Of a stretch of 39,710 nucleotides of DNA, positions 2,037 to 38,250 are shown piece after piece. Source of the DNA: Anaerolineae bacterium (GTDB lineage: Bacteria > Chloroflexota > Anaerolineae > Aggregatilineales > Ch27). Position 1 is the stretch's first letter. Each line of letters begins with the position of its first letter. The translations under genes and the position numbers were made by a program. The stretch spans positions 1 through 39,710 of the forward strand of contig JABLXG010000003.1 in the NCBI GenBank assembly GCA_013178165.1, given 5' to 3'. The notes under the pieces are model-generated. The model was not told where the DNA came from. It was given only the letters and a program-made list of their open reading frames with translations, and ran no database searches.

Positions 2037-2798
2037 ATGGACTTCTCCGGCGTCGACCCACACCGGTCGGAACAGCTCTATCTGCAGATCAGGCGGCTGG
2101 TGGTAGAAGCCATTCAGAACAACGCGTTGCTGCCGGGCCAGCAAATTCCCTCTATTGCCGCCATCGCCCGCCAGGCGCGCGTCAGCCGCATGACCGTCCG
2201 CCAGGCTCTGGATGCCCTGATCCACGAAGGTTGGATCCAGACAGTGCCGGGCAAGGGGTCATTCGTAGCCCGCAAGACGCCGGTTGTGCTGGACCTGGAG
2301 CATGTTGTCGGCTGGTCTGATGAGATGAGGCGGCAAGGCATCGAGCCAAGCGCGCGATTGATCAGCGCGGAGGTCATCCCTGCCGATCCAACAGTCGCCC
2401 GTGCTCTCGATCTACCGGTCAGCACGGCGGTGTACCGCATTGTCCGGGTCCAGTATGCTGGAGAGGTACCGTTGGGGGTCGATACGACCTATCTGCCTGC
2501 CGGACGTTTTCCTGGTTTTGCCGCCCATATTGCCGCTAACCCGGCCTCGATCTCGAAGGTGATGGTTGAACAATATGGCATCCGGCTACCACATGGCATT
2601 CAGTTTGTCGAAGCGATCAGCGTTGATCGGGCTACCGCCGAGTTGATCGGCGTTCTGCCCGGCTCACCGGTGTTACTGGCGGAGCGTACCACATTCGCCG
2701 CGGACGACACGCCAGTGCAATTCGTGCAGGCTGTGCACCGCTCCGGATTGGTACGGCTGAAGATCAGGTTGACAAACACATTCTCCCCTTACAACTGA
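2037..2798 (+). CDS. GntR family regulator, HutC/NagR subfamily (UTRA domain)
   Basis: A 253-residue protein with an N-terminal winged helix (about residues 10-76, containing SRMTVRQALDALIHEGWI and PGKGSFVA) and a C-terminal UTRA ligand-binding domain (about 95-245). This is the architecture of HutC-type regulators that sense sugar phosphates or other metabolites. It heads an operon of sugar uptake and amino-sugar phosphate genes, and a NagR/DasR-like operator lies directly upstream. It probably represses its own operon until an amino-sugar phosphate binds. The start codon has no strong ribosome binding site. Family certain, effector inferred. Confidence 0.93.
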   Translation: MDFSGVDPHRSEQLYLQIRRLVVEAIQNNALLPGQQIPSIAAIARQARVSRMTVRQALDALIHEGWIQTVPGKGSFVARKTPVVLDLEHVVGWSDEMRRQGIEPSARLISAEVIPADPTVARALDLPVSTAVYRIVRVQYAGEVPLGVDTTYLPAGRFPGFAAHIAANPASISKVMVEQYGIRLPHGIQFVEAISVDRATAELIGVLPGSPVLLAERTTFAADDTPVQFVQAVHRSGLVRLKIRLTNTFSPYN

Positions 2799-2883
2799 AC
2801 ATAGCAAGGGGAGCATGTGGATGTTGGCTGTCTCACCAGGAGACACGCCTAAGAGACGTTTTTAGTTCATCAGGAGGAAAGAC

Positions 2884-4170
2884 ATGAACCTTCGCCGCAA
2901 TTTGTTCGCCGTGCTACTCGTGAGCGCCCTGCTCACGGGGTCGCTGGTCGCCGCACAGGGGGACGAGCCAGTCAAGCTGGTCTTCTGGTTCCATACCCAT
3001 CCGCCGATGGTAGCACTCAACGAAGCGCTGATCGCCGAGTACATGGAGCTGCATCCCAACGTCACTATCGAATACGAAGTCATTCCCAACAACCAGTTCT
3101 TTGAGAAGATGATCGTCTCCATGACCACCGGTGTTGGCCCGGACATCATCAACATGGGCAACTCGCAGCTGGTCTCCGACTACATCCCCAACGGGCTGGT
3201 GGATGAGGTTGACTACGCTGCGATGGGCTATGCCTCGATGGATGAACTGCTGGCCCAGTACGTGCCCGCCGGTCTCAAAGGCGCGATGGTCGACGGCAAG
3301 TACTATGGCATCCCCAGCGAGTTTAACACCGACCTGCTGGCCATTTACGTCCCCGATCTGGTCGCTGCCGGTTACCCAGAAGATTGGGCCCCGACCACCT
3401 GGGATGAACTGGGCGAAGTCGCCGGCAGCCTGAGCCAGTTTGACGCCAACGGCAACCAGACTCACCGTGGCTTCGATCTGGTCTACCTGCATGCCGGCTG
3501 GTATTCCAACCAGTTCCAGACGTTGGCCAAGCAAACGGGCTGCACCTACTACAATGAAGAAGGCACCGAGAGCACGATCAACGCTCCGGAGTGTGTGGCC
3601 GCTGCTCAGATCTGGCGGGACATGATCTTCAAGTACAAAGCCGCCAACCCCGCCCTCTCCGCCCGTGAGTCCACCGTTCCGCTGCAGGACTACATTGACG
3701 GCACCGTCTCGATGACGTTCATCCAGCCTTGGGGTATGGAACTGGTCCGGCAGGGCAATCCTGAACGCTGGGAGAACACCAAGCTGGTTCCTCTGCCTCA
3801 GTATGATCCTGAGAACCCCAAGACGAAAGTGAACGCTTACTACTGGGGCGTCAACGCCGATAGCCAGGTGCAGGAAGAAGCCTGGAAGTTCATCGCCTTC
3901 CTGGCCTCCCATCCGGGCCGCTGGCTGCTGGAAGTGAACTTCCTGCAGGCCAACGCCAACATGGATCAACTGCCAGAAGCGGCTGAATTCCCCTATGCCG
4001 AGTCGTGGATGAAAGCGCTTGAACCTGGTGAGTTCTTCCAGCTCTACCCCAATGCCAACGAAACCCACGAAGCCCTGCGTGTGGCCCTGGAAGACATCCT
4101 GTTCAACGATGCAGACATCCAGACGACGCTTGACAACCTGAAGGCTGAACTGGACTTCATTGTCCAGTAA
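2884..4170 (+). CDS. ABC transporter sugar-binding protein (family 1 extracellular solute-binding)
   Basis: A 428-residue exported binding protein. Residues 1-25 form a signal peptide (basic MNLRRN, hydrophobic core, cut near AAQG). The body begins VKLVFWFHTHPP and has the MalE/UgpB-type layout, including the region GVGPDIINMGNSQLVSDYI. A strong ribosome binding site (AGGAGG, 2872-2877) precedes the ATG. It would capture a sugar or amino sugar outside the membrane for the two permeases that follow. The operon has NanE and a sugar kinase, so a ManNAc- or GlcNAc-type ligand is plausible but not shown. No ATPase gene is present in the operon. Confidence 0.95.
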   Translation: MNLRRNLFAVLLVSALLTGSLVAAQGDEPVKLVFWFHTHPPMVALNEALIAEYMELHPNVTIEYEVIPNNQFFEKMIVSMTTGVGPDIINMGNSQLVSDYIPNGLVDEVDYAAMGYASMDELLAQYVPAGLKGAMVDGKYYGIPSEFNTDLLAIYVPDLVAAGYPEDWAPTTWDELGEVAGSLSQFDANGNQTHRGFDLVYLHAGWYSNQFQTLAKQTGCTYYNEEGTESTINAPECVAAAQIWRDMIFKYKAANPALSARESTVPLQDYIDGTVSMTFIQPWGMELVRQGNPERWENTKLVPLPQYDPENPKTKVNAYYWGVNADSQVQEEAWKFIAFLASHPGRWLLEVNFLQANANMDQLPEAAEFPYAESWMKALEPGEFFQLYPNANETHEALRVALEDILFNDADIQTTLDNLKAELDFIVQ

Positions 4171-4309: not shown

Positions 4310-5188
4310 ATGCATTTCACCTGGAACTATCGCACCACAACTAACCTGTGGGGGTTTCTGTTTGCTCTACCGGCGGCGCTGCTTTTTGTGGTTTTCGCCG
4401 CCTATCCGATCCTGCAAACGTTTTACTTCAGCTTCACAGAATACAATCTAGCCCAGCCGCCCCAGTTCATCGGGCTGGAGAATTACCAGACCATCCTGAC
4501 TACTCCGATCTTCCTCGATTCCGTCGGTTTCACCTTTAAGTACGCCGTCTTCACCTATATCCCGACGCTGATCCTGGCGCTGATCCTGGCGCTAGCCCTG
4601 AATTCACGTATTCCACTCCGTGGCACTCTGCGCATGGTCAATTTCATCCCTGTCGTGATCTCGTGGGTGATCGTGGCGGTAATCTGGAAACTGCTCTTTC
4701 ACCTGCAGGGCCTGATCAATGTCGCTCTCAGCCAGATCGGAATCACGCCGTTTAACTGGCTGCTGGAACGGGAAAGCGCCCAATGGGCGATCATCATCCC
4801 CAGTATCTGGAAGGAGACCGGGTTCTACATGGTCATCTTCCTTGCCGGGCTGCAGAATATTCCCGGCGTGTACTATGAAGCCAGTATGATCGACGGCGCT
4901 TCCGCCTGGCAGCGCTTTCGCTACATCACCGTCCCCATGCTGCGGCCAACGATCGTGCTGAGCATTGTTGTCGCTATTATCAACGGCCTGAAGATCTTCA
5001 TCCCCCCGTTCGTGATGACCCAGGGCGGTCCCGCGGGAGCCACGCGGGTGATGGCTCTGATCATTTACCAGACAGCCTTCGCCTTCAACCGCATGGGACG
5101 CGCCTCGGCAATGGCGGTCGTCCTGTTCATCATCATCCTCATTCTGACCTTCACCCAGACCAGGCTGTACGGCACCAAGACAGAATAA
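4310..5188 (+). CDS. ABC transporter permease, MalF/UgpA type
   Basis: A 292-residue integral membrane protein with about six transmembrane segments, beginning near residue 13 (WGFLFALPAALLFVVFAAYPILQ). The permease EAA loop is visible as YYEASMIDGASAWQRFRYITVPML near residue 185, the site that docks the ATPase. It forms a heterodimer with the permease encoded next. Sugar ABC transporters of this class in Gram-positive-like and Chloroflexota genomes often share one multi-use ATPase (MsmK/UgpC type), which would explain the missing ATPase here. Confidence 0.95.
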   Translation: MHFTWNYRTTTNLWGFLFALPAALLFVVFAAYPILQTFYFSFTEYNLAQPPQFIGLENYQTILTTPIFLDSVGFTFKYAVFTYIPTLILALILALALNSRIPLRGTLRMVNFIPVVISWVIVAVIWKLLFHLQGLINVALSQIGITPFNWLLERESAQWAIIIPSIWKETGFYMVIFLAGLQNIPGVYYEASMIDGASAWQRFRYITVPMLRPTIVLSIVVAIINGLKIFIPPFVMTQGGPAGATRVMALIIYQTAFAFNRMGRASAMAVVLFIIILILTFTQTRLYGTKTE

Positions 5189-5243
5189 ACCGCCCGATCT
5201 GGTTAAATGCGCCGCCCTTCGCGAACAAAAAAGGGAAGCACCC

Positions 5244-6071
5244 ATGCACGACCGACGCAAGATCATTCGCAACGTTCTCTTTCTGGCGATTGTGCTACAG
5301 GCGTTTGTCCTGATGATCCCGCTGTTCTACATGCTCTCCACATCATTCAAACTGCCCTCCGAGGTCTTTGACCTGCCTATCCGCTGGATCCCGGAGCAGT
5401 TGCACTTTGAGAACTACATCCAGCCCTTGCAGGAAAAACCGTTCCTGCGCTGGATGTTCAACAGCGCTTTTGTAGCCACTATCGTGACCATTCTCAACGT
5501 CCTGACCTCCGCCCTGGCCGGCTACAGCTTCGCCAAGTTCACGTATCCGGGTCGTGATCTGCTATTTGGTTTCATCCTGGCTACTTTCATGATCCCCCTG
5601 GAAGCGATGATCGTGCCCCTCTTTGTGCTGGTCAAAGACTTGGGTTGGCTAAACTCCTATATCGGTCTGATCATCCCGGCGGGGGGTAGCGCTTTTGGCA
5701 TCTTCATGATGCGCCAGCACATGATCGCCATGCCCGATGAACTGATGGAAGCAGCGCGCATCGATGGCGCCAGCGAGTTCCGCATCTTCTGGAACGTCGT
5801 CCTGCCAATCAGCCAGTCAGCGCTGGTGTCACTGGCTATTTTCGCCTTCATGTGGAACTGGAATAGCTTCCTGTATCCACTCCTGGTCGCCAGCCAGGAT
5901 GCCTACCGCACCCTGCCCCTGGGTCTGGCCTCCTTTGAAAGCGCCTACAGCACCAACTATCCGCAGCTGATGGCCGTGTCGTTCCTGTCGATGCTGCCGG
6001 TGCTGATTCTGTTCTTTGTCTTGCAGAACCGGTTCATCGAATCGATGGCCCTTTCCGGAATCAAAGGCTAA
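5244..6071 (+). CDS. ABC transporter permease, MalG/UgpE type
   Basis: A 275-residue membrane protein with about six helices and the EAA motif (LMEAARIDGASEFRIFWNVVLPI, about residue 170). The N-terminal region (YMLSTSFKLPSEVF) and the C-terminal FIESMALSGIKG ending are characteristic of the MalG/UgpE group. It is preceded by a purine-rich ribosome binding site (GGGAAG) and lies 55 bases after its MalF-type partner. Confidence 0.95.
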   Translation: MHDRRKIIRNVLFLAIVLQAFVLMIPLFYMLSTSFKLPSEVFDLPIRWIPEQLHFENYIQPLQEKPFLRWMFNSAFVATIVTILNVLTSALAGYSFAKFTYPGRDLLFGFILATFMIPLEAMIVPLFVLVKDLGWLNSYIGLIIPAGGSAFGIFMMRQHMIAMPDELMEAARIDGASEFRIFWNVVLPISQSALVSLAIFAFMWNWNSFLYPLLVASQDAYRTLPLGLASFESAYSTNYPQLMAVSFLSMLPVLILFFVLQNRFIESMALSGIKG

Positions 6072-32384: not shown

Positions 32385-33107
32385 ATGCACAGGCACCACG
32401 GGTTTCCATTCGCAGTTCTGTTCCTGATCTTGCTGCTGACAGCCTGCGGCGGTGGCGCAACCCCAACCAGCACCCCGCAGCCCACCGACACACCAGCACC
32501 AACGAACACTCCGGCTCCCACCAGAACGCCGGAGCCAACGGTTGACCTTGCCGCGCTGTCTGCCCCAGAGCTTTATGCCACTGTCGAAGCCCTTCAGGAA
32601 GAACTCACCCTGGAGGAGCAGCACCTGCAGCAGGCATCCGGTTCTGAAGGGGCGTCAGTGCAGGCCAAAATTGACCAGCTTCGCGCTCAGATTCGTGAGC
32701 TAACCACCCTGGCGGAAGCAGCTGGCGGCGCTGGAGGTAGCGAGGTAACCGAAACACTGACGCTCACCGGCCTGTTTGCTGAAGCCCGTGAGTGGACCTG
32801 GGCAGAGATCGAAGCGCTTGGAATGCAGACTGTCACCGCTGCCGGGCCGAAGGAAGACGATCCGGAAGCAGAATACACCGGTGTCAGTCTGGCTGCCTTT
32901 CTGGAAGCCGCTGGCGTGGAAGATGGCGCGGCCACGCTGGTTGCCACCGCTGCGGACGACTTCACCGCCGAGATCGATCTGGCCGCAGCGAAAACCTGCG
33001 CCGATTGCCTGATCATCAGGCAGGATGAAGGCGGCCTGCGCCTGGTCATGCCCGGCTTCCCCAGCAAAAACTGGGTTCAGGACATCGTTAGCCTGGAAGC
33101 GAAATAG
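32385..33107 (+). CDS. Lipoprotein with Thr/Pro linker, coiled coil and molybdopterin-oxidoreductase-like domain
   Basis: A 240-residue lipoprotein. The lipobox LLLTAC puts the lipidated Cys at 21; a Thr/Pro-rich linker (about 26-52) follows, then a helical coiled-coil stretch (about 60-110), then a domain of about 115 residues (LTLTGLFAEAREWTWAEIEALGM, YTGVSLAAFLEAAGV, GGLRLVMPGFPSKNWVQDIVSLE) resembling the small Oxidored_molyb (sulfite-oxidase-like) fold. The sulfite oxidase Mo-ligand cysteine is not evident, but a CADC pair is present. Located between DmsC and a nine-haem cytochrome, it may be a redox or cofactor-binding accessory. A related domain occurs in the lipoprotein at 36450. Confidence 0.8.
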   Translation: MHRHHGFPFAVLFLILLLTACGGGATPTSTPQPTDTPAPTNTPAPTRTPEPTVDLAALSAPELYATVEALQEELTLEEQHLQQASGSEGASVQAKIDQLRAQIRELTTLAEAAGGAGGSEVTETLTLTGLFAEAREWTWAEIEALGMQTVTAAGPKEDDPEAEYTGVSLAAFLEAAGVEDGAATLVATAADDFTAEIDLAAAKTCADCLIIRQDEGGLRLVMPGFPSKNWVQDIVSLEAK

Positions 33108-33133: not shown

Positions 33134-33988
33134 TTGACCGTCTTAGTGTCGGGCCACCGGTGCGCGTCGCCGGGCTGGCATGGTTTGTGGAACAGGCTGG
33201 CGCTGCTGGCAGTGCTGGTCATTCTGCTGTTGCCCACCGATGGATTACTGGCTCAGCAGGGGACGCGCCCGCGTTCTCCCCGTTACTGTGGCCGCTGCCA
33301 TGAAAACGCGTATGCGCACTGGGCCGAGTCCGCCCATAACGTGGAGGCGTTCCGTGGTGAACGGTTTCAGACGATCTGGGAGCGGCAGCGCCGGGCGTCG
33401 AAGTGTCTGGCCTGTCATGCCACCCGCCAGAGCGAAGAGGATGATATCCTCTACCAGGGTGTGACCTGCACCGCCTGCCATAGGCCGATCGGGGAAACGT
33501 ATGACCCGACTGTCCGCGAGCATGTCGAGATGAGCATCCCGGAATCTTCACTGTCCTGCGCTGGATGTCACGGCGGCGATCACGCCCGGACCTTTGGCGA
33601 ATGGCAGGCAAGCGCGCATAATGGTCCGCGCGAGGTGAGCTGCATGGCCTGTCATGACGCCCATACCGGCGGACTGGTTAACCCTGACCTGACCGCTCTG
33701 TGTGGGAGCTGCCACATGCAACCGGTGCCTACCGTCAGCGCCCACATGCACGTTGACAGTGGCTGCACAGATTGCCATCCGGCGCCGATCTCGACTGACA
33801 ACGTGCACATGGGCGGCGATGAGCCTGTTGCTGGCTGCACCGACTGTCACATGCTTACGGCGATGGATTCCTGGGGACTTTACCTGGCAAATGCGGGCCA
33901 TATGATGACTGTGCCACTGGCCGTCTGTGTCAACTGTCACGGCAAATTGCATACGCTGGGCAGCACCACAGGAGCAACCTCGCCCTGA
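33134..33988 (+). CDS. Nine-haem c-type cytochrome
   Basis: A 284-residue exported cytochrome with a hydrophobic N-terminal signal or anchor (about 20-40) and nine CxxCH motifs at residues 52, 91, 112, 142, 170, 190, 211, 235 and 265. Segments such as SCAGCHGGDH and SCMACHDAH resemble DmsE/MtrA-like and cytochrome c554-like multihaem proteins. The TTG start follows AGGAG at nine bases; an ATG at 33126 meets a stop at once. It lies 26 bases after the lipoprotein and likely links the quinol pool and the DmsA-type enzyme by electron transfer. Confidence 0.9.
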   Translation: MTVLVSGHRCASPGWHGLWNRLALLAVLVILLLPTDGLLAQQGTRPRSPRYCGRCHENAYAHWAESAHNVEAFRGERFQTIWERQRRASKCLACHATRQSEEDDILYQGVTCTACHRPIGETYDPTVREHVEMSIPESSLSCAGCHGGDHARTFGEWQASAHNGPREVSCMACHDAHTGGLVNPDLTALCGSCHMQPVPTVSAHMHVDSGCTDCHPAPISTDNVHMGGDEPVAGCTDCHMLTAMDSWGLYLANAGHMMTVPLAVCVNCHGKLHTLGSTTGATSP

Positions 33989-34000
33989 CAGGCGTCCCGG

Positions 34001-34029
34001 TTACTGGCCGGATGGTATGACTTTAATAA
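34001..34029 (+). promoter_or_regulatory. Candidate promoter of the riboswitch and ECF operon
   Basis: TTACTG (34001-34006) and TAATAA (34024-34029) are 17 bases apart, a fair match to -35 and -10. The start of transcription would be near 34036, exactly where the conserved riboswitch-like sequence begins. Confidence 0.45.
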
Positions 34030-34035
34030 CTGAAT

Positions 34036-34240
34036 ACACTCTCCGAGTCTGTCGATGGTTTGCAACAGCGTGATTCACGCGTGTTGCGGCCCCTAAGGCG
34101 CGCCCCACCCGCGCTATGGCGGCAGACCGACCTGCAAGGACTGTCCGGATTCCGGACAGGAGGGTATGGGTGGAAACGCCCATGCCTCCCGAGTTTGGAA
34201 AGGAGAAATGACCACTCGCTGTCTACCAGGACAGTGAGTC
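34036..34240 (+). promoter_or_regulatory. Moco-riboswitch-like RNA leader
   Basis: The leader starts with CTCTCCGAG (34039-34047). A long hairpin follows (CAACA-GCGTG...CACGC-TGTTG, 34063-34086). CCTAAG (34092-34097) and TATGG (34115-34119) flank a GCGCG stem: this is the classic 11-nt tetraloop receptor. A hairpin capped by GAAA (GGGTG-GAAA-CGCCC, 34168-34181) supplies the matching loop. CTGTCCGG pairs with CCGGACAG (34141-34159), and ATGCCTCCCG (34182-34191) and AAAGGAGAAATGAC follow. A tetraloop docked in a receptor is a known feature of the molybdenum-cofactor riboswitch, and the gene context is molybdenum. The assignment is from memory of the consensus and is not certain. Confidence 0.68.
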
Positions 34241-34274
34241 TGCCAGCTGGCAGGTTCTCCGGCTGGCATTTTTT
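34241..34274 (+). terminator. Riboswitch expression platform: terminator touching the ATG
   Basis: TGCCAGC (34241-34247) pairs with GCTGGCA (34262-34268), followed directly by six T (34269-34274) and then the ATG of the ECF ATPase at 34275. An alternative hairpin CTGCCAG/CTGGCAG (34240-34253) would block the terminator. A further stem, ACTCGCTGTC/GACAGTGAGT (34214-34239), lies just upstream. The arrangement implies ligand-controlled early termination. No clear ribosome binding site precedes the ATG. Confidence 0.75.
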
Positions 34275-35819
34275 ATGAACACCTTACCTGCCATCTCTTC
34301 ACCACCCATCACCGCCCGGATCAATGGCGCTGTCAGACCCGGCGCAATTCACGTCGATAACCTGAATGTAACGCTGCGTGGTCTGCCGGTGCTGAAGGAA
34401 ATCAGCCTGCGCGTTGAGACCGGTGAATTCGTGCTGATCAGCGGCCCTTCCGGCAGCGGCAAGAGCACGCTCGCCCGCGCTCTGACTGGCCTGTTGCGTA
34501 GCCAGGAAGGCGTATCCGTCACCGGGGCAATTGGGATTTGCGGCGGCGATGCCTTGCGTCTGCCGCCTGCACAGGTCGCCCAGCAAATCGGCATCGTCTT
34601 CCAGAACCCGCGTGCCCAGCTCTTCAACCTGACCGTGGCCGAAGAACTGGCCTGCGGCCCGCGTAACCTGGGGCTGGATGAGCAGGCTATCCACGCCCGG
34701 GTGTCCTGGGCCGCCGATGCCCTCGATCTGACTCCACTGCTGCCGCGCCGGCTGGACACCCTCTCCGGCGGGGAAATCCAGCGCGTTGCCATTGGCGCCG
34801 TCCTGACCATGGGGTCGCGCGTCCTCATCCTGGATGAGCCGACTTCCAGCCTGGATGTCCAGGCTACCCGGCAGGTCGTTCGATTGCTCAGGCATCTGCA
34901 CGAGCAGGAAGGCACAACCATCCTGTTGATCGAGCATCGGCTGGGCGAGGTAGCTCACCTGGCGACGCGGGTTGTGCTGCTGGATGAAGGGCGCCTCGCC
35001 GCTGACGGTCCGGCAGCAGACATCCTGCAAGATACGGCCCTGTTGCGGCGGCTGGGGATGCGCCGCCCGGCCCCTCAGCCGGTAGCTGACTGGCGAACCC
35101 TGCTGGAGCCTGACGGTGTTCATCCCCCCGGCAGCCAGCCGCTGCTGATCCTGGAAGGGATCGAGGCCGGTTACCGCCAGCACACCGTCCTGAAGGATGT
35201 AAACCTCATCCTCTGGCCGGGTGAGTTTGTCGCCCTGGCCGGGGATAACGGCGCGGGCAAGAGCACCCTGGCGCTGGTTGCCGCGGGCCTCAAGTCCCCC
35301 CGGCGTGGGCGGGTCATCTTCAATGGCCACCAGCGGGTGCGGATGGGGCTGGATGTCGGGCTGCTCTTCCAGAATCCGCTGGACCAGCTCTTTTGCGACA
35401 CGGTGGACGAAGAGGTCGCCTTCGGCCCGCACAACTTTGGCTGCTTCGTGCCGGATATCCACGCCCGCACGCTGGAACGCTGCGACCTGACCGCGCTGCG
35501 GCGGCGGCCCGTCCACGCCCTGTCCGCCGGGCAACAGCAACGCCTGGCGCTGGCCGCGGTACTGGCCCTGCAACCCGCCCTGCTGATCCTGGACGAACCT
35601 ACGCTCGGTCAGGACTGGCGACACCTGGAGCAACTGATGGCCTTCGTCACTGACCTCAACGCGCAGGGAACAGCCGTCCTGATGATCACCCACGACTACA
35701 AGCTCGTACACCGTTACGCCCACCGCCTGGTGTTGCTGCAGGAAGGCCGCATCGTGGCAGACGGGCGGCCCATCCACCAGAAAGAAGGAGAGATTGCACA
35801 TGCGTTTCAGCCTGCGTGA
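34275..35819 (+). CDS. ECF transporter ATPase, fused EcfA1-EcfA2
   Basis: A 514-residue protein with two complete ABC domains. Domain 1: Walker A GPSGSGKST (57-65), signature LSGGEIQRVAIG, Walker B VLILDEPTSSLD. Domain 2: Walker A GDNGAGKST (about 323-331), signature LSAGQQQRLALA, Walker B LLILDEPTLGQD. Two ABC halves in one chain are usual for some ECF (CbiO-like) vitamin or metal importers. It hydrolyses ATP to drive the T and S subunits encoded downstream. The ATG sits immediately after the terminator T-run. Its 3' end overlaps the S-component gene by 20 bases. Confidence 0.93.
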   Translation: MNTLPAISSPPITARINGAVRPGAIHVDNLNVTLRGLPVLKEISLRVETGEFVLISGPSGSGKSTLARALTGLLRSQEGVSVTGAIGICGGDALRLPPAQVAQQIGIVFQNPRAQLFNLTVAEELACGPRNLGLDEQAIHARVSWAADALDLTPLLPRRLDTLSGGEIQRVAIGAVLTMGSRVLILDEPTSSLDVQATRQVVRLLRHLHEQEGTTILLIEHRLGEVAHLATRVVLLDEGRLAADGPAADILQDTALLRRLGMRRPAPQPVADWRTLLEPDGVHPPGSQPLLILEGIEAGYRQHTVLKDVNLILWPGEFVALAGDNGAGKSTLALVAAGLKSPRRGRVIFNGHQRVRMGLDVGLLFQNPLDQLFCDTVDEEVAFGPHNFGCFVPDIHARTLERCDLTALRRRPVHALSAGQQQRLALAAVLALQPALLILDEPTLGQDWRHLEQLMAFVTDLNAQGTAVLMITHDYKLVHRYAHRLVLLQEGRIVADGRPIHQKEGEIAHAFQPA

Positions 35820-36411
35820 ACTGGTCCTGATCGGCACGTTCGGCGCCCTGTGGGGGGTTGTTGAGACAACGCTGGGATCGGTGATTCACCTGGCCAACAT
35901 CCCGTTCAAGGGCATCATTCTGGGTGGGATTGGCGTGATGATTCTGCTGATTGGTCGCCTGTTCGTGCCCCGGCGCGGGGCGACGCTGGCGATGGGTATC
36001 GTCACCGCCGTGCTTAAGATGTTCAGCCTGGGCCAGTTTGTGATCAATCCGATGCTCGCCATCCTGATCGAAGCATTGCTGGCCGAAGTAGTGCTTAGCC
36101 TGCATAGAACAGTCAGCCGAAGGGCGTTTCTGCTGGCAGGAGCGGTAGCCATCTCCTGGAACTTCTTCCACCCCTTTCTGACCTGGGGCATCCTGGCCGG
36201 GCAGGGCATCCTGACCATCTGGACAAGCACGATTGAGAACGGGGCGCGGACGCTGGGTCTTAGCCCGGACCTGGCCTGGGCCGTTGTGGCGATCCTGCTG
36301 GGCATTCACGTGGTCGGCGGCTTGCTGGCCGGTTGGCTGGGCTGGCAGGTCGGACAGCAAATCCGCCGCCGCCAGGCTGCCTCGCTGAACGATCCTGCTG
36401 CGTCCGCCTGA
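35800..36411 (+). CDS. ECF transporter substrate-binding S component, substrate unknown
   Basis: A 203-residue membrane protein with about six helices and the ECF S-component style: an N-terminal LRELVLIGTFGALWGVVETTLGSVIHL helix, then VMILLIGRLFVPRRGATLAMGIVTAVLK. ATG 35800 is preferred because AAGGAG (35785-35790) is well spaced; a TTG at 35794 is too close. It captures the transported compound. I do not recognise a specific vitamin or metal family. The riboswitch-like leader and the Mo-enzyme neighbours point to a Mo, W or pterin-related ligand (inference). Confidence 0.82.
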   Translation: MRFSLRELVLIGTFGALWGVVETTLGSVIHLANIPFKGIILGGIGVMILLIGRLFVPRRGATLAMGIVTAVLKMFSLGQFVINPMLAILIEALLAEVVLSLHRTVSRRAFLLAGAVAISWNFFHPFLTWGILAGQGILTIWTSTIENGARTLGLSPDLAWAVVAILLGIHVVGGLLAGWLGWQVGQQIRRRQAASLNDPAASA

Positions 36412-36428
36412 ACCGGACTGTTTTTTTT
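36402..36428 (+). terminator. Weak terminator-like site between S component and lipoprotein
   Basis: GTCCG (36402-36406) pairs with CGGAC (36414-36418), followed closely by eight T (36421-36428). The stem is only five base pairs, so partial termination or attenuation is more likely than full termination, because the T-component gene further downstream is needed for the transporter. Confidence 0.45.
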
Positions 36429-36449
36429 CGACGACAAGGAGCATCTTGT

Positions 36450-36935
36450 ATGCATACCAGACATCTGCCAGTAGCTTTGATCCTCTTTGCGGCGCTGCTG
36501 CTTGCCGCCTGCGGTCCTGCCGGGCAAGCCTCACCCACCCCGCCGCAGGAAGCCTCCGTGCCCGGCGTCATCCTGACCATCACCGGCGGCGAAACCGAAC
36601 GTACCTTCACGCTGGAACAGCTTCAGGCCCTGCCGGTGACCGAGGTCGAATCAGCGGACGGCCAGTTTGTCGGCGTACGGCTGGGCGATCTGCTAACCGA
36701 GGCCGGCTTTAGCCTGGAGGCCATCGCCACCGTGCAGGTGGTCGCAACCGACGGCTTCAGCAGCACCTACCCGCCAGAGCTGTTCAGCCGGGAAGATGCC
36801 GTGCTGGCCTACGCCCGCAAGGGTGGCAGCAGCCTCAACGACGACGAAGCGCCGCTGCGCATGGTCATTCCGAACGAGGGAGGCACGATGCAGCCACGGA
36901 TGGTCAATCGAATCGAGGTAAACGTACAGGGATGA
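36450..36935 (+). CDS. Small lipoprotein with molybdopterin-oxidoreductase-like domain in the ECF operon
   Basis: A 161-residue lipoprotein: lipobox LLLAAC (lipidated Cys about 20), a short Pro-rich linker, then about 120 residues with the pattern ILTITGGETERTFTLEQLQALPVTEV, FVGVRLGDLLTEAGF, VVATDGFSSTYPPEL, LRMVIPNEGG and MVNRIEVN. This resembles the small Oxidored_molyb-like fold and the C-terminal domain of the lipoprotein at 32385. ATG 36450 follows AAGGAG. Placed between the S and T components, it may be an outer-face capture protein for the ligand. No catalytic cysteine is seen. Confidence 0.8.
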   Translation: MHTRHLPVALILFAALLLAACGPAGQASPTPPQEASVPGVILTITGGETERTFTLEQLQALPVTEVESADGQFVGVRLGDLLTEAGFSLEAIATVQVVATDGFSSTYPPELFSREDAVLAYARKGGSSLNDDEAPLRMVIPNEGGTMQPRMVNRIEVNVQG

Positions 36936-37540
36936 CCACTGCTACCCCACGCCTTCGTCCCGGCCCAACTGTGCTGGCCATGACCACCGCGATGATCGTG
37001 GCGGTCACTGGCAGCGGCTGGTGGGCACTGGCCAGCCTGCTGGCCGCGCTCGGCCTGACCCTGCGCTTGGCCCCGGCGGCGCTGCGCCCGATCCTGAGTT
37101 GGCGCTGGCTGTTGCTGATCCTCATGCTGATTCTGCCCGGCGCCCTGTGGGTCGGGCAGCCGGACAGCCACCTGCTGGGCATCCCCTACTCGCGCTCCGG
37201 CCTGATTCTGGGACTGCAGATGGCCTGCCGGGCCACAACCATCTTCCTGGGTGTCAGCGTTCTAAGCCAGCGAGTATCCGTGATGCAAATGGCCCGGATG
37301 CTGGAACGAGCAGGGATACGGGACATCGGTTTTGCCATCGGTGTGGGCTTCCATGCCCTGCCCACGTTGCAGCGGCGCTTCGTCACGGCCTATGCCGCCT
37401 TCCGGTTGCGCGGTGGCTTCCGGCGGCAGCGCTGGCGCGGGTTACAACTGTTGATCGTGACGGTGATCAGCGGGGCGCTACGCTACGCTGAGGACGTGCT
37501 GATGGCGGCGCAAGCGCGCGCCTTTCCCTACGACAACTGA
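36932..37540 (+). CDS. ECF transporter T component (EcfT-like)
   Basis: A 202-residue membrane protein with about five helices, starting in an ATGA overlap with the lipoprotein gene. The pattern GLQMACRATTIFLGVSVLSQRVSVMQMARMLERAGI and the later AYAAFRLRGGFR and MAAQARAF segments correspond to the Ala-Arg-Gly coupling helices of EcfT/CbiQ proteins that bind the ATPases. It is shorter than many EcfT proteins (about 260 residues). It completes an A-S-(lipoprotein)-T operon. Confidence 0.85.
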   Translation: MTTATPRLRPGPTVLAMTTAMIVAVTGSGWWALASLLAALGLTLRLAPAALRPILSWRWLLLILMLILPGALWVGQPDSHLLGIPYSRSGLILGLQMACRATTIFLGVSVLSQRVSVMQMARMLERAGIRDIGFAIGVGFHALPTLQRRFVTAYAAFRLRGGFRRQRWRGLQLLIVTVISGALRYAEDVLMAAQARAFPYDN

Positions 37541-37593: not shown

Positions 37594-38250
37594 TCAGTGC
37601 TGCGGCCCCGGCAACACGATCACATGCGCCGGCAGCGGGGCCAGCCGCGCCAGCAAAGCCTCCAGCAGGCCGGGCCGGATCACCACCAGCGCCCGCCGGT
37701 AGGCCGCCGCCCGTAACACATCCAGCGCAACGACCCAGCCCTGATTGCGCTGTAGCTCCAGCGGCCCGATCTCGTCGATCACCAGCAGGTCACACGCTCC
37801 GCTGGCCACCAGCAGCGCCGCCCCGCGGGCCAGCACATCCGGCGCAAACCGCCAGTGAATGGTTATCACTGATCCCGGCGCCTCGAGAGAAGCGCCCGCA
37901 TCGAGAGATGCGCCCGCATCAGAAGATGCGCCCGCATCGAGAGAAGCGCCCGCATCTTGCTCATGGCGGACGGCCAGCGGCCAGCGCTGACCCGTTGCTG
38001 GATCAAGCAGATCAATGCCGACGCGTGCGCCATCCGCCGCGTAATGTCCCGGTGTCAGCACACCGCGCACGATCAGGCCGGCGGCGCGAGCAGCCGCAAC
38101 GGCCCGCAGGCACAGCAGCGTCTTGCCGCTGCCGGATGGCCCGCTGAGCAGGGTGATGGCCGCCGGTGGGCGAAATAACCCGTCCAGCCAGTCACGATCA
38201 GGGTGCACGACGCCATCCTCACTCATCTGTCGGGAATGCGCCAGGAACAT
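37594..38250 (-). CDS. THEP1-like P-loop NTPase with an inserted repeat
   Basis: A 218-residue protein. The P-loop SGPSGSGKT (about residues 36-44), LIVRGVLTPGH, LLVIDEIGPLELQ (Walker B with E) and RALVVIRPGLLEALL match the NTPase_1/THEP1 group of nucleoside triphosphatases. In the middle is a low-complexity run of DAGAS units encoded by an 18-bp tandem repeat. Start uncertain: M1 at 38250 or M9 at 38226, neither with a clear ribosome binding site. It ends near the shared terminator. Function unknown in this setting. Confidence 0.78.
   Translation of the reverse strand: MFLAHSRQMSEDGVVHPDRDWLDGLFRPPAAITLLSGPSGSGKTLLCLRAVAAARAAGLIVRGVLTPGHYAADGARVGIDLLDPATGQRWPLAVRHEQDAGASLDAGASSDAGASLDAGASLEAPGSVITIHWRFAPDVLARGAALLVASGACDLLVIDEIGPLELQRNQGWVVALDVLRAAAYRRALVVIRPGLLEALLARLAPLPAHVIVLPGPQH
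37883..37954. repeat. Minisatellite: four 18-bp units inside the NTPase gene
   Basis: Four consecutive units (37883, 37901, 37919, 37937) of a sequence like TCGAGAGAAGCGCCCGCA; units 1 and 4 are identical, unit 2 differs by one base, unit 3 by a few. Because 18 is divisible by three, unit number can change without breaking the frame; each unit adds six residues (DAGASL or DAGASS). Confidence 0.93.

Follow-up and report, generated by a model that had tools for sequence, protein, structure and literature searches.

The window, a 39,710-nucleotide stretch of DNA from an Anaerolineae bacterium, carries an RNA leader followed by four tightly packed genes on the forward strand. These encode an ECF double ATPase (A-A; 34275–35819, 514 aa, exact start uncertain), which exceeds the cut-offs of both TIGR04521 (359.8 bits) and TIGR04520 (356.1 bits); an ECF substrate-specific (S) component (35800–36411, 203 aa; PF09819, 28.8 bits, cut-off 25.2); a PruR-like lipoprotein with a predicted SUOX fold (36450–36935, 161 aa; PF00174, 43.2 bits, cut-off 24); and an ECF T component (36932–37540, 202 aa; PF02361, 40.9 bits, cut-off 25). 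The S gene starts inside the end of the A-A gene and the T gene inside the stop of the lipoprotein gene, and the four genes form one operon. Two ATPase domains, a T component and a dedicated S component are encoded together, as in group I ECF transporters. The profile matches confirm the A-A, S and T genes with an embedded lipoprotein proposed in a first-pass annotation, which had also placed this block directly after a Moco-enzyme operon; a DmsABC-type Mo enzyme operon indeed lies just upstream of the leader.

Convergent to the ECF operon, on the reverse strand at 37594–38250, lies a gene for an NTPase_1 P-loop protein (PF03266, 48.9 bits). Because a PF03266 NTPase gene opens the riboswitch-controlled ECF operon in three other species (L045, L046 and L047), this protein appears to belong with the importer system. 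A Pfam scan of the window operon reveals no SBP_bac_11 or PBP_like_2 binding protein.

A Moco riboswitch with an adjoining terminator precedes the ECF genes

Searched alone with cmscan, the leader matches the Moco riboswitch family RF01055 across the full model (1–135) at 34029–34220, on the same strand as the genes that follow, with 52.1 bits and an E value of 6.6e-12 against a curated cut-off of 36 bits. In an Rfam scan of the whole window the match spans 34032–34219 with 46.2 bits, and RF01055 is the sole family over its cut-off in the 39.7 kb. This is also the only RF01055 site detected in the source genome. The covariance search thus substantiates the Moco riboswitch that had been suspected from the letters of the leader. 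The cmscan alignment, the fold and the motif positions agree on a P3-containing aptamer with P1–P5 architecture, a GNRA tetraloop on P4 and its receptor in P2. The receptor, GAAA hairpin and conserved segments named earlier are all present: CTCTCCGAG of P1 at 34039, the receptor in P2 as CCTAAG at 34092 and TATGG at 34115, GTCCGGATTCCGGAC of P3 at 34143, the GAAA loop of P4 within GGAAAC at 34172, and the motifs GGAGAAATGA at 34202 and TTTTTTATG at 34269. The leader folds far better than shuffled sequences (z -5.7).

The sole terminator-like site in the region is an intrinsic terminator (34241–34274) whose hairpin occupies 34241–34268 and whose T-run abuts the ATG of the A-A gene at 34275, as originally described. 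Its UUCUCC segment (34255–34260) is the exact complement of GGAGAA (34202–34207), the 3' strand of P1 and the proposed 5' half of an antiterminator; the computed energy of this duplex is -9.2 kcal/mol versus -8.6 kcal/mol for P1. Both proposed antiterminator halves, the terminator hairpin and the T-run are kept in the related species L003. From this pairing and its conservation, a transcription-termination OFF switch is plausible. Moco is unstable. When plentiful, it would hold the aptamer with P1 closed, allowing the terminator to form and turning the importer off; when Moco is scarce, GGAGAA would pair with the UUCUCC segment of the terminator, so that transcription could continue into the operon.

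The S component is a distant YkoE relative and the lipoprotein resembles PruR

The window S component has hydrophobic segments in addition to its PF09819 match; its AlphaFold model is poor (pLDDT 52) and was left unused. A profile of window-type S sequences that includes one sequence from g15, a genus of the same class treated below, matches the thiamine-binding YkoE (5edl) with E 6.8e-4, whereas the profile without that sequence does not reach YkoE; a profile of the g15 S components themselves matches 5edl with E 3.6e-7. These profile comparisons place the window S component as a distant relative within the superfamily of the thiamine protein YkoE. YkoE contacts thiamine through Trp49, Glu77 and Gln95 (PMC5037267). 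In a weak alignment made by eye, these positions fall on Gly, an invariant Lys73 and an invariant Glu91 of the window-type family, so that the thiamine contacts appear not to be conserved, with some uncertainty owing to the weakness of the alignment. The first-pass annotation had set its reading against an S component from a known vitamin family; distant superfamily membership goes part of the way towards such a family, but the thiamine contacts appear not to be retained and a separate ThiB-type thiamine-binding protein, over the cut-off for TIGR01254, is encoded elsewhere in the source genome. No THI-box or TPP riboswitch was found in the window. A thiamine importer was rejected, given the altered pocket residues and the separate ThiB-type system.

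The only cysteine of the lipoprotein is Cys21 of its lipobox, and no cysteine beyond the lipobox occurs in the corresponding proteins of L003, L047 and L048. The protein thus lacks the cysteine that ligates Mo in sulfite oxidase and MsrP. The sulfite-oxidase-like domain first ascribed to it therefore stands as a PF00174 match, but not as an enzyme-type domain; the likeness is instead to PruR. Against the PDB, the family profile retrieves sulfite dehydrogenases and PruR pterin-binding proteins (7kos, 1.8e-6). A structural model of the lipoprotein, its core well predicted, finds PruR 7kos as best Foldseek match (E 2.3e-6), and in structure comparison PruR and sulfite oxidase tie near Z 14. The lipoprotein accordingly combines two PruR-like features, the absence of a Mo-ligating cysteine and, as modeled, an exported SUOX fold of about 150 residues. 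PruR binds reduced pterins in the periplasm without a Mo-ligating cysteine and prefers tetrahydromonapterin (PMC13259868). According to the same source, Moco would not fit into its small binding site (PMC13259868), an observation that counts against Moco as ligand.

Proteins with PF00174 domains occur in other Mo/W contexts of the phylum. A PF00174 lipoprotein is encoded directly before WtpA in G377 (L115) and in G090 (L127), the latter under a Moco riboswitch, and in L117 a TupA-like binding protein carries a fused PF00174 domain. The SUOX-type fold therefore repeatedly accompanies Mo/W uptake in the phylum.

The riboswitch-ECF pairing recurs in Chloroflexota

A survey of 400 genomes of the phylum Chloroflexota yielded close relatives of the S component (40–52% identity) in five other genomes, and a contig scan with the window S protein returned one near relative only. 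The search for the same leader and ECF order in other genomes, which the first-pass annotation had suggested, was positive: a Moco riboswitch lies directly upstream of the same ECF type in G005, G089, G361 and L003, and at least four Chloroflexota species besides the source organism thus share the RNA-ECF pairing. In L003 the leader is about 93% identical to that of the window, and the ECF proteins and lipoprotein are 87–92% identical. In G377, the riboswitch and NTPase gene end one contig and the ECF genes begin another, and the two ends would join; the ECF genes of G192 have no riboswitch that was detected in front of them. The lipoprotein gene is carried by only some of the relatives (L003, L047 and L048).

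The source organism encodes MoaA, MoaC, MoaE and MoeA, and an imported cofactor is therefore not needed there. No ModA, WtpA or TupA was recognized among the matches inspected in its genome, where the PF13531 and PF12849 matches are of phosphonate/iron, thiamine or phosphate type; the PBP_like_2 protein G000:C7 was rejected as a TupA, its best match being PstS-like with no permease beside it. A lack of such proteins would be expected if the importer carried molybdate. Five of the six genomes with the window-type ECF, however, appear also to have ModA, WtpA or TupA candidates, several of them assigned from profile scores and neighbors alone, and such candidates besides the ECF system are as predicted if the ECF substrate is a different one. 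The gene content of the source genome fits molybdate/tungstate import as well as cofactor salvage.

In a second lineage the importer and cofactor biosynthesis exclude each other

Elsewhere in the phylum, RF01055 sites in G168, G200 and G343 precede another ECF operon. These genomes belong to g15, one genus of the Anaerolineae represented by 16 genomes. The first gene of the g15 operon encodes a PF09819 S domain (71.9 bits) fused through an extra hydrophobic helix to SUOX-type domains, whose homology to the family of the window lipoprotein is supported by hhalign (96%, E 1.5e-9). The order of fused S, A-A, T, a haem-motif/SUOX-like protein, a PF01663 lipoprotein of the exported phosphodiesterase/nucleotide pyrophosphatase type, and two PF00174 lipoproteins is kept on every contig long enough to show it. 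Between the two systems the S components are 22% identical (hhalign 69%), and because they are only distantly alike, their substrates may differ. The g15 riboswitch that was aligned is without P3, and the other riboswitches of the genus have the same short length; the motif paper associates the P3-less form with the tungsten cofactor (PMC2408646). An AOR-family tungsto/molybdopterin enzyme is encoded some 12–15 kb downstream.

The fused S component is present in 10 of the 16 g15 genomes, none of which has MoaA, MoaC, MogA or MoeA in a combined query. Biosynthesis genes occur in two genomes (G453 and G482), both lacking the fused S, and the remaining four, of 69–81% completeness, have neither importer nor biosynthesis. 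Genomes at least 90% complete comprise seven with the importer only, all of which encode AOR, and one with biosynthesis only. Independent family searches likewise found no MoeA_N in G168, G200 or G343 and no MoaA in G168. The riboswitch lies upstream of the importer in all ten importer genomes; in G453 and G482 it instead adjoins a tupA-like gene that closes the moa cluster. The chance value of this exclusion is 1/66 = 0.015, ignoring kinship, and the pattern is correlative, drawn from 12 genomes that are related to one another. Since G453 sits between importer-bearing genomes on the AOR tree, the pattern does not reduce to one deep split, although the species tree may differ. The simplest reading is that g15 bacteria take up finished cofactor; importing molybdate would not make up for the loss of MoaA and MoaC.

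Several other g15 genes were assessed. The binding proteins inspected in G168 are, by their neighbors, of sulfate, iron and phosphate type and not ModA, WtpA or TupA. A PF00384 match was rejected as a molybdopterin enzyme, its neighbors marking it as hydrogenase-linked and NuoG-like, which leaves AOR as the relevant enzyme. A second ECF system beside AOR was rejected as a Moco importer; a cobalamin riboswitch lies upstream of it in G479–G481, and it is also present in the Moco prototroph G453.

The substrate is probably a pterin

That the window encodes a riboswitch-controlled ECF importer for a substrate related to the Mo/W cofactor is well supported and, in our judgment, very probably correct. 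The Mo/W/pterin uptake first proposed for the locus is still the best class of explanation, within which the comparative evidence favors a pterin cofactor. On balance we incline toward a pterin substrate, most likely Moco/Tuco or molybdopterin. More tentatively, and with somewhat less than even confidence, the system may be a dedicated bacterial importer of the finished Mo/W pterin cofactor with a surface capture domain and Moco riboswitch control. In such an importer, the SUOX-fold, cysteine-free surface lipoprotein would capture a pterin-type ligand, most likely molybdopterin with Mo or W, or its pterin part, and hand it to the YkoE-like S component, with A-A and T driving entry. In g15, where the capture domain is fused to S via the extra transmembrane helix, the exported nucleotide pyrophosphatase may act beforehand on dinucleotide forms of the cofactor and remove their nucleotide.

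The main rival, a serious one for the window although we consider it rather unlikely, is that the window ECF imports molybdate or tungstate in place of ModABC, TupABC or WtpABC, the lipoprotein being an oxyanion-binding protein. A source genome with cofactor biosynthesis yet no recognized ModA, WtpA or TupA among the inspected matches would suit this explanation, as would the PF00174 lipoproteins before WtpA (L115 and L127) and the PF00174-TupA-like fusion (L117). It accords poorly with the apparent presence of the usual Mo/W binding proteins in five of the six window-type genomes and with the PruR-like fold, a pterin-binding fold, and in g15 the importer replaces biosynthesis, which is impossible for molybdate import. 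Moreover, no ECF S component is known to import oxyanions.

Two further rivals concern organic substrates. Import of another pterin, such as one of monapterin or neopterin type or a breakdown product of Moco, in which case Moco would serve only as a regulatory proxy, seems improbable: the ligand preference of PruR and its supposedly small pocket (PMC13259868) would agree with it, but a Moco/Tuco sensor is an odd regulator for other pterins, and g15 has lost the late MogA and MoeA along with MoaA and MoaC, which argues that a late or finished form is imported. Least credible, and in our view very improbable, is that a YkoEDC-like importer of thiamine or HMP has acquired control by a Moco riboswitch. 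The PF09819 assignment and the YkoE matches fit such an origin; the replaced contact residues (as aligned by eye), the lack of a TPP riboswitch in the window, the thiamine-binding protein encoded elsewhere and the failure of the window-type profile to reach YkoE without the g15 sequence all speak against it.

If import of the finished cofactor is correct, whole species can abandon cofactor biosynthesis and keep a tungsto- or molybdoenzyme, and the importer may be the first known bacterial uptake route for ready-made Moco. As of 2022, uptake of exogenous Moco had been neither examined nor observed outside C. elegans, and how it crosses membranes was being asked (PMC9793310); a 2026 review describes how pterins cross the bacterial membrane as unknown (PMC13259868). 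No paper on ECF uptake of Mo, W or Moco came up in our literature search. The operons name testable genes, namely the riboswitch, capture protein and S component, together with natural cofactor auxotrophs.

Comparison with known systems

The window RNA shares with the Moco/Tuco riboswitch (RF01055) the full consensus with P3, the GAAA tetraloop and receptor, a Mo-metabolism gene context, and a terminator-type expression platform, which is described for some members (PMC2408646). It differs in controlling an ECF importer; the targets named in the available part of the motif paper are molybdate ABC transporters, cofactor biosynthesis and Moco enzymes, with no ECF system mentioned in that part (PMC2408646). 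The transporter resembles YkoEDC, which takes up thiamine in Bacillus subtilis and is likewise a group I ECF system, in its PF09819 S component, fused double ATPase, dedicated T component and single riboswitch-controlled operon, but a Moco riboswitch replaces the THI-box, the thiamine contacts appear not to be conserved, and a SUOX-fold lipoprotein or fused domain is present.

That lipoprotein shares with PruR, its best structural match, an exported SUOX fold of about 160 residues without a Mo-ligating cysteine; PruR, however, partners the signaling enzyme DcpA, whereas here the protein is encoded in an importer operon or fused to S. ModABC, WtpABC and TupABC systems are likewise under Moco riboswitches in the phylum, some accompanied by PF00174 lipoproteins or bearing a PF00174 domain as a fusion, but have another transporter architecture and a binding protein of the periplasmic type. 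Finally, the cobalamin ECF system beside the g15 AOR cluster parallels the g15 importer in having a cofactor riboswitch (RF00174) upstream, an importer operon and an exported toroid-domain protein, but it serves B12 rather than Moco and is kept also in the Moco prototroph.

Genes accompanying the riboswitch-ECF operons

In two further Chloroflexota genomes, G005 and G377, the riboswitch-ECF operon contains a gene for a SAM-dependent methyltransferase between those for A-A and S (L047 5959-6564, minus strand, and L048 1464-2045, respectively), and at L047 an FmdE-like protein (PF02663) is also encoded after T. The first gene 3' of Moco riboswitches is itself repeatedly FmdE-like (RDHSHLCPRQILGVR), as seen at loci L175, L181, L184, L187, L193 and L200.

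Within the DmsABC-type operon of the window, a second PF00174 lipoprotein (32385-33104) carries a CADC motif and is followed by a DmsE-like multihaem cytochrome (33134-33988). PF00174 domains, which have a SUOX-type fold, also occur as part of a TupA-like fusion protein at L117 (2530-3567, minus strand) and immediately 5' of WtpA at L115 in G377 (2610-4052) and L127 in G090 (4375-5385, minus strand). The L127 locus is controlled by a Moco riboswitch.

Related transporters and molybdopterin enzymes

At three loci of genus g15 (L271, L272 and L273), the AOR cluster has a further ECF system as its neighbour; this system includes a squalene-cyclase-like toroid protein and is preceded by a cobalamin riboswitch (RF00174). 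Immediately 3' of a large molybdopterin oxidoreductase gene, two Dehalococcoidia loci encode a distant S-like membrane protein paired with a PF03266 NTPase (L050 5858-7054; L053 4751-5998); neither of the two S-like proteins passes Pfam.

A molybdopterin oxidoreductase gene elsewhere in the window's genome (L216, G000:C3:114413-115687) contains one in-frame TGA and possibly encodes a selenocysteine formate dehydrogenase. Downstream of Moco riboswitches in G106 (L156, L174) lie genes resembling [NiFe] hydrogenase operons. Finally, a Moco riboswitch of G377 (L182, a locus terminating at the contig end) precedes a lipoprotein gene that perhaps marks another Mo-related importer, its product resembling BtuF/MolA-type binding proteins.
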